Source: Haloarcula marismortui ATCC 43049
GTDB lineage: Archaea; Halobacteriota; Halobacteria; Halobacteriales; Haloarculaceae
Direction: 5' to 3'
NCBI RefSeq assembly: GCF_000011085.1
Contig: NC_006396.1
Coordinates: 1,364,001 to 1,428,000, forward strand
DNA: 64,000 nt
The translations under genes and the position numbers were made by a program. This document shows, in pieces, positions 6,213 through 63,312 of the stretch; within the stretch, counting starts at the first letter, position 1, and every line of letters starts with the position of its first letter. A model generated the notes under the pieces. It did no database searches. It saw nothing but the letters and a program-made list of their open reading frames with translations, and was not told the origin of the DNA.

Positions 6213-6761
6213 TTAGTGACTAATTGCGGACGCAAGTATGAGGACGAGGCAGTGAACGGCGACGAGTCCGAGAAGCAGTACCGTTCTGGCCGCCGGTGGA
6301 CTCACGACCGCGGCTGCGCCTATCGCCACCGTCAGGACACGCACGACGGTCTCGGGTCGGAAGCTGTCGCTTGACTGCTCCTCGGTTGTGCGGGCCGCTT
6401 CGAACTGATCTCTGATAGCGCCGAATCTGGGGCCCTGACGGACCTGCTTTTGATCTTGCTTGTACTCGACCAGTCCGACAGCGTCGAGCTTGGGCAGGTG
6501 TGTCTGACAGAGTGAAATGTACACACTGTCGTAGAGCTCGTCACTATCGGTTTCTGCATCGGCGACAATGCTTGCGACCTGCTGGCCCAGTGCACTGACG
6601 GATAGCGCTGTCTCGTGTTCGGCAAGACAGTGCAAGCATACGCGGCGGCGCTCGTTACCGAGAATATCGAACATCGTCGCATCATCAAGGCCGGTCTGGT
6701 CTGGCGGCTCCGTCGTTTTCCCGGTCGCAAGGACAGCGTCGAGTCCCACTGTCGGTCGCAT
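6213..6761 (-). CDS. DUF7344-type winged-helix protein with membrane segment
   Basis: The 182-residue protein has an N-terminal winged-helix-like domain (TMFDILGNERRRVCLHCL, then VYISLCQTHLPKLDAVGLVEY). These are the hallmarks of the haloarchaeal DUF7344 family. The C-terminus carries one or two hydrophobic segments (VVRVLTVAIGAAAVV and TVLLLGLVAVHCLVLILA). It is therefore probably a membrane-tethered DNA-binding regulator. A paralogue lies just downstream at 6817-7530 in the same orientation, transcribed before it. The target is unknown. Confidence 0.8.
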   Translation of the reverse strand: MRPTVGLDAVLATGKTTEPPDQTGLDDATMFDILGNERRRVCLHCLAEHETALSVSALGQQVASIVADAETDSDELYDSVYISLCQTHLPKLDAVGLVEYKQDQKQVRQGPRFGAIRDQFEAARTTEEQSSDSFRPETVVRVLTVAIGAAAVVSPPAARTVLLLGLVAVHCLVLILASAISH

Positions 6762-6816: not shown

Positions 6817-7530
6817 TTACCGAACCGCATCGAGAGCGGCACGTAGCCGGTCAGCAACCGACTGCGGTGCTGACAGTGACAGCCGATGGCTCGCCGCCAG
6901 TGCTACAAACACCACACTCACGACGAGCGCGACTGCGACGCCTGACACTGTGGTCCCGCTGAGTGCGAGTCCACCGACCGCAATCAGTGTCGCACACGCG
7001 GTCCCGAGATACCGACCGGACCACCGCTCACCGGCCGATGTGTGGGCAGCTGTCCGAGCGTGCTCAGTGACTGACTCGGTCGACGGCGTCGACTCCGCAG
7101 CCGTCGTCGACAGAAGCGTTGGCTCCTCGTCGAGATATTTATCGAAGGAGTTCGCGAGCGCGGTCGCTTCGACGAGTCCCCGGTCCTGGTTGTAGTTGAT
7201 GACGCCCGCATCGTCCATCTTTGGGAGGTGGGACTGGTACAGCGCGATGTAGACGCGCTGGCGCTCTTTCGAGCGGAGCGAGTCGACCGTCGTGTCGTGT
7301 TCCAGCGCCGCGATGTGTTCTGCGATGTCGCTCATATCAGCCGGCTCATCGCCGGGGTGCTCGTGGAGGTACTTGAGGACCAGACGGCGACGGCGACACT
7401 GGAGAACGTGGAAGAGGTCGTCGCGGGTGAGTTCGTCGTCCGATGGGGAGTCCGCAGACGGTGACTCGTCTGTCACGGACTCCTCAGCCTCGGTTGCCGT
7501 GGGTTCGGAAGTCGTTTCAGCTATCGACAT
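6817..7530 (-). CDS. DUF7344-type winged-helix protein, paralogue
   Basis: The 237-residue protein repeats the architecture of the gene at 6213. A disordered acidic N-terminus (residues 1-38) precedes DDLFHVLQCRRRRLVLKYL and VYIALYQSHLPKMDDAGVINY, the winged-helix core. A C-terminal hydrophobic pair lies near residues 178-213 (YLGTACATLIAVGGLALSG, VSGVAVALVVSVVFVALA). The two genes lie in tandem 55 bases apart and may be co-transcribed from upstream of 7530. I infer a duplicated membrane-bound regulator. No cognate sensor or operator is visible. Confidence 0.8.
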   Translation of the reverse strand: MSIAETTSEPTATEAEESVTDESPSADSPSDDELTRDDLFHVLQCRRRRLVLKYLHEHPGDEPADMSDIAEHIAALEHDTTVDSLRSKERQRVYIALYQSHLPKMDDAGVINYNQDRGLVEATALANSFDKYLDEEPTLLSTTAAESTPSTESVTEHARTAAHTSAGERWSGRYLGTACATLIAVGGLALSGTTVSGVAVALVVSVVFVALAASHRLSLSAPQSVADRLRAALDAVR

Positions 7531-7999
7531 GTGCTCTCCTTATCCAGCACCCGACATATACCGGGTCGACTGTTCCGCCGATTGCGACTGTTTCATCGAT
7601 TTAGCGGGCCTGTAATGCTGACTTACCCCGGCAACGATACGATTGAAACGGCCGCTGAAGCCCCTATCAGCCCATATTTCGGTATTTCTGCACAGGTGTT
7701 ACTGTCTATTACTGTTTCACGCACCATACTGAATTGTTTCACCGTTTCGACGGTAGTTAGTGGATTCTATTTTACATATTTGAGATGTGTTAGGTGCTAA
7801 AATCAGGCTGGTTCTGCTGTTTTCCAGGCTTAGAAGGCCTAAAATCGGGAACGAAGCGTACGTTTATATCTGCCGGACGGTGTCGTAGGCCCATTCCGGA
7901 CCACCGTGGCAGCGGCGGACAGGTGTGTTCGGCGGAGACTCACCCCTCACTGTGCAGTGATGCCACTGGCAACCCAGCTACCCCGGTCTGTGAGCCGGC
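7531..7999. other. Intergenic region, no gene seen
   Basis: About 470 bases between the start of the DUF7344 gene and the end of the next minus-strand gene. It holds an AT-rich middle (7670-7800) that could serve as promoter for 6817-7530. A segment TTTAGCGGGCCTGTAATGCT at 7600-7619 has a near copy at 21859-21878. I see no coding frame. Confidence 0.4.
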
Positions 8000-9703
8000 T
8001 TACCCACCGGGCGTTGGCGGCTTAATGTCGCCCGCATGGGGCGAGTTTGCCGCTGCAGGCGTTGCCCGCTCCAGACAGATGAGGTTCTCCCTGCCGAGAC
8101 GTATCTTGACGACTTCGTCCTCGTCGACCATCCGCGAAAGGAGACGGCTAACCTTCGCTTTCGACCAGTCTGTTGCCTCAACGATGTCGGTCTGGTGCAG
8201 ACGGCCATTCTCGACTTGCAGCATCAGCTTCACGAGTTGCGCGTCAGGGGTGAGTTCCCGGTCGGCGTGTTCGAAGGCTTCAGCTGCGGTGCCCACGTCG
8301 ATGTCTGGACCGTCAGCTTCGGCCACCCTGTCTGTCGCCTCGATTTCACGATTGACCTCGATTATCTCCCGGTCCAGTTCGAGGCGGCGATAGATGAACA
8401 GTCTGGCCGCCGCGGAGAGTCCCGTGACCCAGTCACGCCTGATCGCCGCGACTGTCAGCCCGATCCCGATCAAGAACCCAAGAAGCGAACTCGTCACCCA
8501 GGCTGGCGTCAGCACGCTGTTTGGGTTCGTTCCCCAGGCGACTTCCTGGGGGTCGGTCAGGAAGTCACCGTCCGAATCGACCGCGAGCGGGTCCGTTCCA
8601 AGGTCCGAAACTTCCTGTCCATCGTTGAGACCGTCGCCGTCCGTATCGACGGTGGTCGGGGACGTGCCAGCCGCCAGTTCCTTTCCGTCGCTGAGACCGT
8701 CACTATCTGTGTCACTCTCGGTGGGTTCGGTCCCCGCCTCAAGTTCTGTCCCATCTGCTATCCCATCACCGTCAGTGTCAGCGACCGTCGGGTCGGTGCC
8801 CAGGGCCAGCTCCCTGCCGTCAGCGACCTCATCAGCGTCGGTGTCGGCCTGTACCGGGTTCGTACCGATCTCCAGCTCCCGACCGTCGACGACGCCGTCG
8901 TCGTCCGTGTCTGCGTCGGTCGGATCGGTCTCGCCAGACGCCTCTCGCTGGTCGGACAGCCCATCGCCGTCAGTATCGGCGACGGTCGGATTCGTTCCGA
9001 GTGCCAGTTCGCGTTCGTCCGAGAGCCCGTCGCCGTCCGTGTCGCCCTGTCGCGGGTCGGTACCCTCTTGAATCTCAGCCCTGTCACTGACACCATCTTC
9101 GTCAGTGTCTGTGGCCGTTGGGTCTGTCCCGTGCTGGTGGACCTCTGACCCGTCCAACAGCCCGTCACCGTCAGTGTCGGTGTCAGTGAGGTTCGTCCCT
9201 CGGGCCACCTCGTTGCTGTTGTTGAGCCCGTCATCGTCAATATCACCGGCACGCTGAATCGGCTGCAAAGGCACCGACCGCGTATCCAGCGTGGCGTTAG
9301 AACTCGTGTTGCGCAGAGAGATAGAGAGATCATCGAGTCCCGCCCTTCCGGGGGTCGTGAGAGCTGCAGTTCCGTTCGGGCCGACCGACGTACAGGTCGT
9401 CGACCCGTTCGCACGCGCACAGACTGTGAGATTTTCCTGCGGCGACGTAACTGTGACCGCGATCCGATACCCGCTGGCCCGCTCGCCATCTATTTGTTCC
9501 CAGACGAACGCACCCCCATTCGGTCCGTCTGCGGTAGCCTGTGTTGGCTCCACCGACTGTATCGCTGGCGCCGTTTCGTTGCCCGCCACTGTGTATTCAG
9601 CATACTGCCCGGCGTCCGCTGCGGCAGCGACACCTACGGAGACAGACGCGACTGTCAAGAGGAGGAGTAAAGCGCAGATCCCGCTCACGATCCGGTGTCT
9701 CAT
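8000..9703 (-). CDS. Membrane-spanning protein: eleven Ca-type repeats outside, winged helix inside
   Basis: This 567-residue protein has a Sec-type signal peptide at residues 1-28, with a hydrophobic core ICALLLLLTVASVSVGVA. A beta-rich domain follows to about residue 150. Then come eleven thrombospondin type 3-like units of about 22-23 residues (DTDGDGLSD pattern, with GTDP/GTNP between) up to about residue 400. One transmembrane helix (VTSSLLGFLIGIGLTVAAI) is followed by a basic stretch. The cytoplasmic tail ends in a MarR-like winged helix (TDIVEATDWSKAKVSRLLSR, then VVKIRLGRENLICL). The order is consistent with a one-component transmembrane regulator whose outer part binds calcium. The inferred ligand and targets are not shown by the sequence. 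A Bat-type regulator gene lies directly upstream. Confidence 0.85.
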   Translation of the reverse strand: MRHRIVSGICALLLLLTVASVSVGVAAAADAGQYAEYTVAGNETAPAIQSVEPTQATADGPNGGAFVWEQIDGERASGYRIAVTVTSPQENLTVCARANGSTTCTSVGPNGTAALTTPGRAGLDDLSISLRNTSSNATLDTRSVPLQPIQRAGDIDDDGLNNSNEVARGTNLTDTDTDGDGLLDGSEVHQHGTDPTATDTDEDGVSDRAEIQEGTDPRQGDTDGDGLSDERELALGTNPTVADTDGDGLSDQREASGETDPTDADTDDDGVVDGRELEIGTNPVQADTDADEVADGRELALGTDPTVADTDGDGIADGTELEAGTEPTESDTDSDGLSDGKELAAGTSPTTVDTDGDGLNDGQEVSDLGTDPLAVDSDGDFLTDPQEVAWGTNPNSVLTPAWVTSSLLGFLIGIGLTVAAIRRDWVTGLSAAARLFIYRRLELDREIIEVNREIEATDRVAEADGPDIDVGTAAEAFEHADRELTPDAQLVKLMLQVENGRLHQTDIVEATDWSKAKVSRLLSRMVDEDEVVKIRLGRENLICLERATPAAANSPHAGDIKPPTPGG

Positions 9704-9811
9704 ACAGTACGGGTGTCACAGCGCGACAATATCCTTTTTGGCACATAGCCTCTTTGTCACTTCTGACCACACCTGATAATTCAGCGATAATTTGTGGCGC
9801 GCCCCGACTAC

Positions 9812-10570
9812 TTACTCTTCGGACAGTCCGAGCTCCGACCCAACGACCTGATCCATACCGCGCCGAATCCGTTGTGACATCGCTGATGGTGAAATACCGA
9901 GTTTGTCCGCCAGCTCAGCCTGTGAGATGCCACGAGGCACGTCGAAGTACCCCTCTCTGTGTGCCGTCTCAAGTGCGACCTGCTGGTCTGCGGTCAGTCC
10001 GCATACGTCGGCATTTGCCTCTCCAGAGGTCCAGTACAGCCGATCAAGTCTAAATGTGATGTTCCGTTCAGAACACTCGGATCGGAACTGCGACAGTGCC
10101 GCTTGTGACCGAAACTGTGCGTGCACTAGCCACTGCCCACCCGTCCCTTCCATGCCGAGCGCCCGGCCACCAGCCTGGACGAGTGAAGGCGTGACCTGAA
10201 CGGCACTGTCGGCCACCTCGATTCGATAGATGCGGTTCGTCTCCGTCCAGTCTAATACGAGGGACCCACACACCGTGTTATCCCTCCCCAGTTCTGTTTC
10301 GAACTGGTCAAGGCTCTCACCCGCGACCTCAATCACCAGAAAATTTGACGTGCCGTCGTTAACCATCTGCTCCGGATGGACTGTTATGTCTGAACTGCTC
10401 TCGGTTGCATCCGTCAGAATCAGTTCTGGATGACTCAGGCATAGATCGACGCCGAGGCTCTTCTCCCGTGGTGTTTCATCCGTCTCCGATGGACTTGCCG
10501 GCCCGTAGCCAGCGCCATTGACTGGCTGGTCCGCCTCGGTTGCTGACCCCTGGTCGCCGGTGTTGCGCAT
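9812..10570 (-). CDS. Bat-type helix-turn-helix regulator
   Basis: The 252-residue product ends in an HTH_10 domain of the bacterio-opsin activator type (LTADQQVALETAHREGYFDV, then ISQAELADKLGISPSAMSQR). The middle is a beta-rich domain of the kind that precedes this HTH in haloarchaea. No PAS or GAF domain is present. ATG 10570 is preferred over the GTG at 10594. It is transcribed in the same direction as the membrane winged-helix gene at 8000-9703 and is divergent from the DUF4330-type gene; the shared upstream region 10571-10798 probably holds both promoters. Target genes are unknown. Confidence 0.85.
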   Translation of the reverse strand: MRNTGDQGSATEADQPVNGAGYGPASPSETDETPREKSLGVDLCLSHPELILTDATESSSDITVHPEQMVNDGTSNFLVIEVAGESLDQFETELGRDNTVCGSLVLDWTETNRIYRIEVADSAVQVTPSLVQAGGRALGMEGTGGQWLVHAQFRSQAALSQFRSECSERNITFRLDRLYWTSGEANADVCGLTADQQVALETAHREGYFDVPRGISQAELADKLGISPSAMSQRIRRGMDQVVGSELGLSEE

Positions 10571-10798
10571 ATGAACACCAGACGAATTGCGCACAAGGGT
10601 ATTGCCACTATACAGATAGTGTCTGCGAGGCGAGATGCTATACTGATAGCCGGGCGTGGGCCGGGTAGCCGCCTCCGTTTGCTCACCTTGCGGTGTCGGA
10701 AGATCGGCAGGTCACCGGCCTTCGGAGGGATGACTCTCGCCGACGCGGGACAGTCAGACAACGAAACACCCAAACCACTCGGAAGAAATGACTACCGC

Positions 10799-61525: not shown

Positions 61526-63312
61526 TCACTCCACCGTTACGCTTTTCGCCAGATTCCGGGGCTTGTCGATGTTTCGCCCGAGCAACGCGGCCGTGTGATA
61601 CGACACCAGCTGTAGATGTGTGTTCGCCAACACGGCGGCGGCTCGCGGATGGGTCGCCGGAATCTCGAGTACGTGGTCGGCATAGCGTTCGACGTCGTTT
61701 TGCCCGTCCGTAATCGCCACCACCGGGGCGTCCCGCGCTTCGACCTCTTTGACGTTCCCGATGGTCTTGTGGGCGCGTTCGTCGTCGCCGGTCACGATAG
61801 CGAACACCGGCGTGTTCTCGGTCACCAGCGCCAGCGGACCGTGTTTCAGTTCGCCGGACGCGAAGCCCTCGGCGTGCTTGTAGGTGATTTCTTTCATTTT
61901 CAGCGCGCCCTCCAGCGCCACGGGCTCCTGATAGCCGCGGCCGATGAAGAAGTAGGCGTCGGCGTCTTGGTACAGCTCGGCGATTTCCTGGGCGGCAGAT
62001 TCGTCGAGGACCTCCTGGACGTGGCCGGGCAGGTCACGGAGCGCGCTGATGACCTGCCGGGCGTCGCCGGTCGAGGACGTACCGAGTGCGAGCAGGTTCA
62101 GCGCCGCCAGCTGCGAGGCGAAGGTCTTGGTGGCGGCGACGCCAATCTCCGGGCCGGCGCGGATATACAGCGCGTGGTCGCATTCGCGGGCCGCAGTGGA
62201 GCCGACCACGTTGGTCACGGCCAGCGTGCGTGCACCGCAGCGGCGGGCCGCCCGGAGCGCCGAGAGCGTGTCTGCGGTTTCGCCGCTCTGGGTGACGCCG
62301 ACGACTAAGGCGTCGCCGATAGGCGGCGTCGCAGTCGCGTACTCGCTGGCGAGGAACGCCTGGGCGGGAATGCCCGCTTCGCGGAACAGTTGTGCGCCGT
62401 GGAGGGCGGCGTGATACGAGGTCCCACAGGCGACGAACTGGACGCCGGTCGGGGAGAGGTCCCCGAGGTCGCCGATGTCGACCGTCCCGGCGAGTTCGTC
62501 GACGCGGCCACGCAGGCACTGCCGGAGCGCGCGCGGTTGCTCGTGGATTTCCTTGAGCATGAAGTGGTCGTAGCCGCTCTTGCCGGTCTCCTCGGGGTCC
62601 CACTGAACGGTGTCGACGTCCTTCTCGATGACGGTGCCGTCGGTGTCAGTGACGGTCCAGCCGTCGCCGTTGAGGCGGGCGAACTCCCCGTCGGCGAGGT
62701 AGACGACCTTGTCGGTGAAGTCCCGGAATGCGGGCACGTCGCTCGCCAGGTAGGTCGCGCCGTCATCGATACCAAGGACGAGCGGCGAGTCGTTGCGCGC
62801 GGCGAACACCGAGTCACAGCCAGCGACGACGACGGCGACGGCGTAGCTCCCGTCCAGGCGGCTGATCGCCTCGCGGACGGCGTCCTCGGGGTCGGCCCCC
62901 GCTTCCAAGGCGTCCTCGATGAGGTGGGGGACGACCTCCGTGTCGGTATCGGAGGTGAAGGTGTGGCCGGCCCCGACGAGTTCGTCCCGCAGGGACTGGT
63001 AGTTCTCGATGATGCCGTTGTGGACGACGGCGACGTCGCCGGTACAGTCCTGGTGGGGGTGGGCGTTCTCGTCGGTCGGCGGCCCGTGGGTGCTCCAGCG
63101 GGTGTGGCCGATGCCGACCGAGCCAGAGAGGTGTGCTCGGAGAGTGCCTCGCGCAGGTCAGCGATTTTGCCTGAGTGTTTGCACATGTCGATATGACTGT
63201 TCGCCAGCACGACGCTGGCGGAGTCGTACCCGCGGTACTCCAGTTTCGAAAAGCCGTGGACCGACGTATCGAGCGTCTCGTCGCCGCGGGTAGCGCAGCT
63301 GATGATACCGCA
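61526..63312 (-). pseudogene. glmS: Glucosamine-fructose-6-phosphate aminotransferase, disrupted
   Basis: GlmS makes glucosamine-6-phosphate from fructose-6-phosphate and glutamine. The N-terminal amidotransferase frame begins at 63312 with CGIISCATRGDETLDTSVHG (catalytic Cys) but without its own Met; upstream lies the end of a TnpB element. That frame is lost near 63120-63130, where the sequence needs a shift to read SVGIGHTRWSTHG. The rest to 61526 is open and holds the two SIS domains (VACGTSYHAAL, GVTQSGETADTL, GRGYQEPVALEGALKMKEIT) and ends RNIDKPRNLAKSVTVE. Two separate lesions argue against a working enzyme from this copy, though the sugar-isomerase part could still be made from an internal start. 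Confidence 0.85.

Follow-up and report, generated by a model that had tools for sequence, protein, structure and literature searches.

Predicted transmembrane transcription regulators with TSP3-type ectodomains and their recurrent DUF7344 neighbors in haloarchaea

In regulators of the ToxR/CadC type, the winged helix is N-terminal and cytoplasmic. Transmembrane transcription regulators, to which these proteins belong, are a common class, and single-pass proteins are their commonest form (Demey et al. 2023; PMC10269533). Among archaea, ArnR and ArnR1 of Sulfolobus are membrane-bound one-component regulators of surface structures, and the ArnR layout consists of an N-terminal HTH and TM helices (PMC13286277). 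In haloarchaea, arCOG00381, assigned to pfam11748, is a membrane-bound transcriptional regulator of type IV pilus loci (PMC4858521). Extracellular DxDxDG loops with calcium-dependent surface behavior are found in the B domain of staphylococcal Bap (PMC7785521), which is a cell-wall adhesin without a DNA-binding domain.

We analyzed a stretch of 64,000 nucleotides of the Haloarcula marismortui ATCC 43049 genome (NC_006396.1, positions 1,364,001 to 1,428,000; hereafter, the window), in which one gene encodes, by its predicted architecture, a one-component type-I transmembrane transcription regulator (hereafter, TTR; Table 1). Like the ToxR/CadC-type proteins, the TTR combines a DNA-binding domain and a TM helix in one polypeptide with no phosphorelay, but its winged helix lies C-terminal of the TM helix, behind a signal peptide, and its ectodomain is an Ig-like domain on thrombospondin type 3 (TSP3) repeats. 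It is also archaeal and membrane-bound, as are ArnR and ArnR1, but has the opposite orientation and a large ectodomain; it is the DUF7344 partner described below that has an N-terminal HTH and TM helices in common with ArnR/ArnR1, a likeness by layout alone. Compared by description, arCOG00381 is likewise a haloarchaeal membrane-bound regulator tied to surface structures, although to pilins rather than to glycan loci. The same module of TM helix and C-terminal winged helix occurs without TSP3 repeats in other DUF7343 (PF24034) proteins, which have other ectodomains (three paralogues in the same genome) or none (Natrialbaceae). The regulator class is thus already known. The initial annotation had called the fusion of TSP3 repeats to a DNA-binding domain across the membrane an unusual combination; because transmembrane transcription regulators are common (PMC10269533), this holds only for the TSP3/Ig-like ectodomain and for the pairing with DUF7344. 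A literature search, with most subscription journals outside its scope, found no paper naming DUF7343 or DUF7344. Searches with COG2512, which we take to be a possible name for the family, returned unrelated papers only.

Table 1. Features of the TTR locus (window coordinates)
Feature	Position	Strand	Details and basis
TSP3-DUF7343 transmembrane transcription regulator (TTR; predicted), 567 aa	8000..9703	-	ORF, Pfam, AlphaFold model, congener orthologues
Predicted signal peptide, residues 1-30	9614..9703	-	Hydropathy; hydrophobic N-terminal segment in homologues
Predicted N-terminal Ig-like beta-sandwich, residues 31-153	9245..9613	-	C95/C104 pair, 6 sequons, invariant W68
Eleven TSP3-type repeats with EF-hand-like ligand sets, residues 154-397	8513..9244	-	Pfam, ligand frequencies, model
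Predicted transmembrane helix, residues 399-422	8438..8509	-	Hydropathy, AlphaFold model, homologue topology
Predicted juxtamembrane cytoplasmic helix, residues 426-455	8339..8428	-	End merges into low-confidence linker; AlphaFold model
Winged helix DUF7343, residues 487-544	8072..8245	-	Recognition helix WSKAKVSRLLS, wing GREN; Pfam, conservation, model
DUF7344a, conserved partner	6817..7530	-	Putative N-terminal winged helix and two C-terminal TM helices
DUF7344b, second, tandem DUF7344 + TM protein	6213..6761	-	In most Haloarculaceae loci
Distal pair of candidate operator array, GTGAAACAATTCAGTATGGTGCGTGAAACAG	7712..7742	-	Unique in genome
Proximal pair of candidate operator array, ATGAAACAGTCGCAATCGGCGGAACAGTCG	7567..7596	-	Directly upstream of TATA-like GGTATATG and the DUF7344a start
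Conserved block TGTGCCAAAAAGGATATT, core-promoter-like, before the TTR start	9727..9752 (approximate)	-	8 aligned Haloarcula upstream regions
Bat-type neighbor gene	9812..10594	-	HTH_10 E 6.7e-15

Domain architecture and predicted topology

The TTR ORF begins with ATG, and its ends fall exactly at 8000 and 9703. Orthologues in congeners are 68-90% identical and evolve under purifying selection, which argues against a chance ORF. Constraint is strongest on the winged helix (dN/dS 0.084, 92% identity), followed by the repeats (0.117), the linker (0.299), and the N-domain (0.319). Pfam assigned nine stretches to TSP3_bac (PF18884, E 2e-54; 181 bits against a cut-off of 25) and residues 487-544 to DUF7343 (PF24034, E 5e-22; 77.9 bits against a curated cut-off of 27.6), with weaker MarR/IclR winged-helix matches. 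The NCBIfam equivalogs CglD (94.5 against 400 bits) and MtsD (59.7 against 800) both fell below their cut-offs and matched the repeat region. No histidine kinase or receiver domain was matched by Pfam in the TTR or its DUF7344 neighbors, in agreement with the initial proposal of a direct route without a phosphorelay, in which extracellular repeats and a winged helix share one polypeptide.

In an AlphaFold model built from a 73-sequence alignment (mean pLDDT 85), a beta-sandwich was followed by eleven short helices in the repeats (pLDDT about 97); residues 399-422 formed the TM helix, 426-455 a long juxtamembrane helix, and 487-543 a winged helix. The pLDDT dropped below 50 at 443-465, in the linker between the juxtamembrane helix and the winged helix. 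Hydropathy placed the single TM helix at about the same residues and the hydrophobic stretch of the signal peptide at residues 5-23, and a hydrophobic N-terminal segment was found in 70 of 74 homologues. The signal peptide, single membrane helix, and cytoplasmic winged helix of the initial annotation were therefore recovered by Pfam, hydropathy, and the model together. When the model was compared with the PDB using Foldseek, ArsR/MarR winged helices and the Bap B domain were retrieved, none passing E 0.001. The N-domain gave weak Ig-like matches (E about 6e-3 at best), including calcium-stabilized Ig-like modules of adhesins, and no significant sequence relative of the TTR was found in the PDB.

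Three features of the 74 homologues predict that the winged helix is cytoplasmic, as initially proposed. The 17 residues flanking the TM helix contain on average 2.86 K+R on the C-terminal side vs 0.93 on the N-terminal side; exactly two cysteines occur in the ectodomain of 71 homologues; and sequon density is about eight times higher outside than inside (2.43 vs 0.29 per 100 aa). No homologue lacking the DNA-binding residues was encountered, with W513, S514, V518, S519, R520, G537, and R538 invariant in 73 homologues.

The eleven repeats begin at residues 154, 176, 199, 221, 243, 265, 287, 309, 331, 353, and 376. The count of eleven in the initial annotation is thus correct, but the strict DxDxDG motif is present in only nine, with repeat 7 (DTDADE) and repeat 11 (DSDGDF) deviating at position 6 only. 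When repeats were chosen by anchors other than the ligands (the TDP turn plus two hydrophobic positions; 165 segments), positions 1, 3, 5, and 9 were D and position 12 was E in 92-93%. At these positions, E replaced D in at most 1% and D never replaced E12, whereas neighboring positions varied freely. This 1-3-5-9-12 pattern is, as judged from sequence, the ligand set of an EF-hand/TSP3 calcium loop, which bears out the calcium-type repeats of the initial annotation, and the near absence of D/E swapping rules out mere halophilic acidity. Among homologues, the number of repeats ranges from about 1 to 12, as would suit a stalk more than a tuned sensor, and two relatives have DxSGNG/DxTGDG loops instead. 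A constitutive calcium-stiffened stalk is likelier than a calcium sensor on the sequence evidence.

Distribution and genomic neighborhood

The N-domain profile matched 94 of 391 haloarchaeal genomes, in 30 of 86 genera, and 115 of 116 matches (fetched ORFs, duplicates included) also carried the winged helix; the exception (L219) is apparently one gene broken into two ORFs. The domain order initially suggested for a search in other archaea thus recurs, and the TSP3-ectodomain plus winged-helix architecture, reported here as new, spans many haloarchaeal families as predicted from these sequences. Some related proteins differ in composition. Eight loci of one haloarchaeal family (L204, L205, L210, L217, L221, L225, L226, and L230) encode N-domain and TSP3 homologues without a winged helix. 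A uvrC-linked group, mostly with 2-5 repeats, has a uvrC/ligA neighborhood without DUF7344; L158-L174 are short-stalk regulators of this kind with 3-5 repeats, in a fixed neighborhood. Another group, mostly from Natrialbaceae (L059-L125), comprises ectodomain-less DUF7343 proteins of about 150-200 aa with a TM helix and a winged helix; their genes are often near DUF7344 and, at some loci, near DegT/Gfo/UDP-sugar dehydrogenase genes.

In terms of neighboring genes, the initial annotation had pointed to a Bat-type regulator. The HTH_10 domain of that gene is present, but its BAT domain scored 22.0 bits, below the curated cut-off of 25.8, and the Bat, TrkA-like, and DUF4330 genes beside the TTR are conserved only in close Haloarcula, which rules out Bat as the partner. 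Instead, DUF7344 recurs. Of 73 loci outside the clade of Haloarcula orthologues, 38 have it within 1.6 kb of the TTR (37 of 53 when the uvrC-linked group is set aside), and in 37 of the 38 it is on the same strand. With 14 DUF7344 genes in the 4.27-Mb H. marismortui genome, we estimate chance adjacency to be of the order of 1-2%. Within the genus, the 18 genomes with a TTR are the same 18 that have an adjacent DUF7344a orthologue. In one congener without a TTR around it, a DUF7344a-like piece (L236 of G008, about 7065-7499) is interrupted by a stop codon. On the winged-helix tree, whose deep forks are unsure because of the few columns, DUF7344 linkage was clustered yet spread over several families.

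In the window, DUF7344a and DUF7344b stand in tandem, each a putative winged-helix protein with two TM helices. The DUF7344 domain is N-terminal with two hydrophobic segments behind it, matching ArnR in layout only, and weak HTH matches and the appearance of the sequence hint at a winged helix. DUF7344 is often also found near the ectodomain-less DUF7343 genes of Natrialbaceae, indicating that the pairing does not need the stalk and ruling out that it is specific to the TSP3 forms. The promoter array described below, not the pairing, is the only part specific to these forms.

In many lineages, the genes around the TTR suggest that surface polysaccharides or glycoproteins are made there. Of 53 non-uvrC TTR loci, 29 had two or more glycan gene families within 5 kb (GlmS, UDP-sugar dehydrogenase, GT2, AsnB-like, DUF354, DegT, and Gfo/Idh were counted), compared with 1 of 57 DUF7343 loci without TSP3, a control set in which one lineage predominates. 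The TTR in the window has no glycan genes as immediate neighbors, and the closest GlmS-like match lies about 52 kb from it. A GlmS-like gene at about 61529-63312 (-) is read in two frames (query residues 64-605 and 2-62) and is thus possibly frameshifted or mis-assembled; another copy elsewhere in the genome has no break.

A candidate operator array at DUF7344 promoters

Little of the 469-bp gap before DUF7344a is conserved apart from TGAAACA/GAACAGTC repeat blocks just upstream of the TATA-like element. The degenerate motif RAACRGT[CTA] was present in 30 of 45 DUF7344 promoters vs 63 of 408 other promoters (Fisher 1e-12), and in 17 of 17 genera it was commoner at DUF7344 promoters than at those of other genes; a reversed control motif was found in none of the 45. 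Because this motif was tuned partly on the same data, only a held-out test is free of circularity. That test used the clade in which the gene order is reversed: TGAAACR, the form seen in Haloarcula, was counted 20 times there vs 3.8 in random windows (300 draws, none above 9). At DUF7344 promoters of the Natrialbaceae type, the motif was at background.

In the H. marismortui genome, the tandem array is essentially unique to the DUF7344a promoter. It is absent from the promoters of unpartnered DUF7344 genes, and no RAACRGTY site lies upstream of the three DUF7343 paralogues. A genome-wide regulon controlled through the array was ruled out, as there are almost no other sites in this genome. Glycan genes are not supported as direct targets, as RAACRGTY-type motifs were not enriched upstream of them. 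At several L158-L174 loci, an inverted repeat, for example TACCGTTT-N8-AAACGGTA, precedes a nearby ABC gene. We infer from the motif distribution that the RAACRGTY array is a candidate operator on which the TTR may act, perhaps with DUF7344.

Possible modes of action

Given the architecture, predicted topology, conservation, pairing, and motif enrichment, we consider it somewhat probable that the TTR is a type-I one-component regulator in which a calcium-loop rod presents the Ig-like domain and the winged helix controls the DUF7344 promoter. Here, calcium loading, the ligand, signaling through the membrane, the DNA target, and the effect on surface glycans are the inferred steps. In brine, the loops would be constitutively calcium-loaded, forming a stiff stalk that would keep the N-domain level with the S-layer or outside it. 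The event sensed at the surface could be a ligand, a glycan, contact, or the state of the envelope; it would alter how the TM and juxtamembrane helices dimerize, and this would change the DNA-binding state of the winged helix, which would act on the tandem RAACRGTY array at the adjacent DUF7344 promoter. The DUF7344 product would be a second, ArnR-like membrane-anchored winged-helix protein, and the pair may adjust cell-surface functions.

The identity of the protein at the array could differ from this. It is conceivable, though we lean against it, that the DUF7344 product binds the array in autoregulation and that the TTR acts only by contacting the DUF7344 protein. The position of the motif fits this variant, in that it occurs at DUF7344 promoters (30/45) and seldom upstream of linked TTR genes (7/40); however, the uvrC-linked group, which has no DUF7344 neighbor, carries copies upstream of the TTR (12/17) and of the nearby ABC gene (7/11), and the unpartnered DUF7344 genes of H. 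marismortui have no tandem array. A more elaborate scheme, which we regard as doubtful, would have the two membrane-anchored winged-helix proteins, a calcium-stiffened arm through the S-layer and an ArnR-like partner, act jointly at the tandem RAACRGTY array and adjust the glycan coat, as an archaeal counterpart of paired bacterial membrane regulators.

Other explanations concern the ectodomain and the linker. If the TSP3 loops bound calcium reversibly in the environmental range, their occupancy could alter the stalk and thereby the winged helix, making the TTR a calcium or salt sensor. The conserved EF-hand-like ligand set would suit such a role, as would the staphylococcal Bap DxDxDG EF-hand system, which senses about 10 mM calcium (PMC7785521) and whose B domain is a weak fold match of the model; but the drift in repeat number and the many redundant sites fit a structural rod better, and some relatives have DxSGNG/DxTGDG loops, so we judge a sensor to be unlikely. 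Cleavage at or near the membrane could instead free the winged helix as a soluble factor. This is suggested by the low-confidence, fast-evolving linker (pLDDT under 50 at 443-465, dN/dS 0.30), although flexible linkers are also usual in membrane-tethered regulators, and with no protease gene recognized among the annotated clusters of recurrent neighbors we think regulated proteolysis quite improbable. We give least credence to the TTR being primarily an adhesin or surface-structure protein with the winged helix as a passive anchor. The eight loci with related ectodomains lacking a winged helix, and the weak N-domain matches to calcium-stabilized adhesin modules, point in that direction, but no other part is as constrained as the winged helix (dN/dS 0.084, 92% identity), whose recognition residues are invariant, and a partner regulator gene and a promoter motif co-occur with the TTR.

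Four things are new in the one-component regulator favored here: the TSP3 ectodomain, a DUF7344 partner that recurs, the glycan setting, and a promoter array common to its relatives. To our knowledge, little is known of how archaea signal from outside the S-layer to their genes when no phosphorelay is involved. With its defined ectodomain, partner gene, recurrent glycan setting, and candidate DNA site, this family would make the question testable in the genetically tractable Haloarcula.
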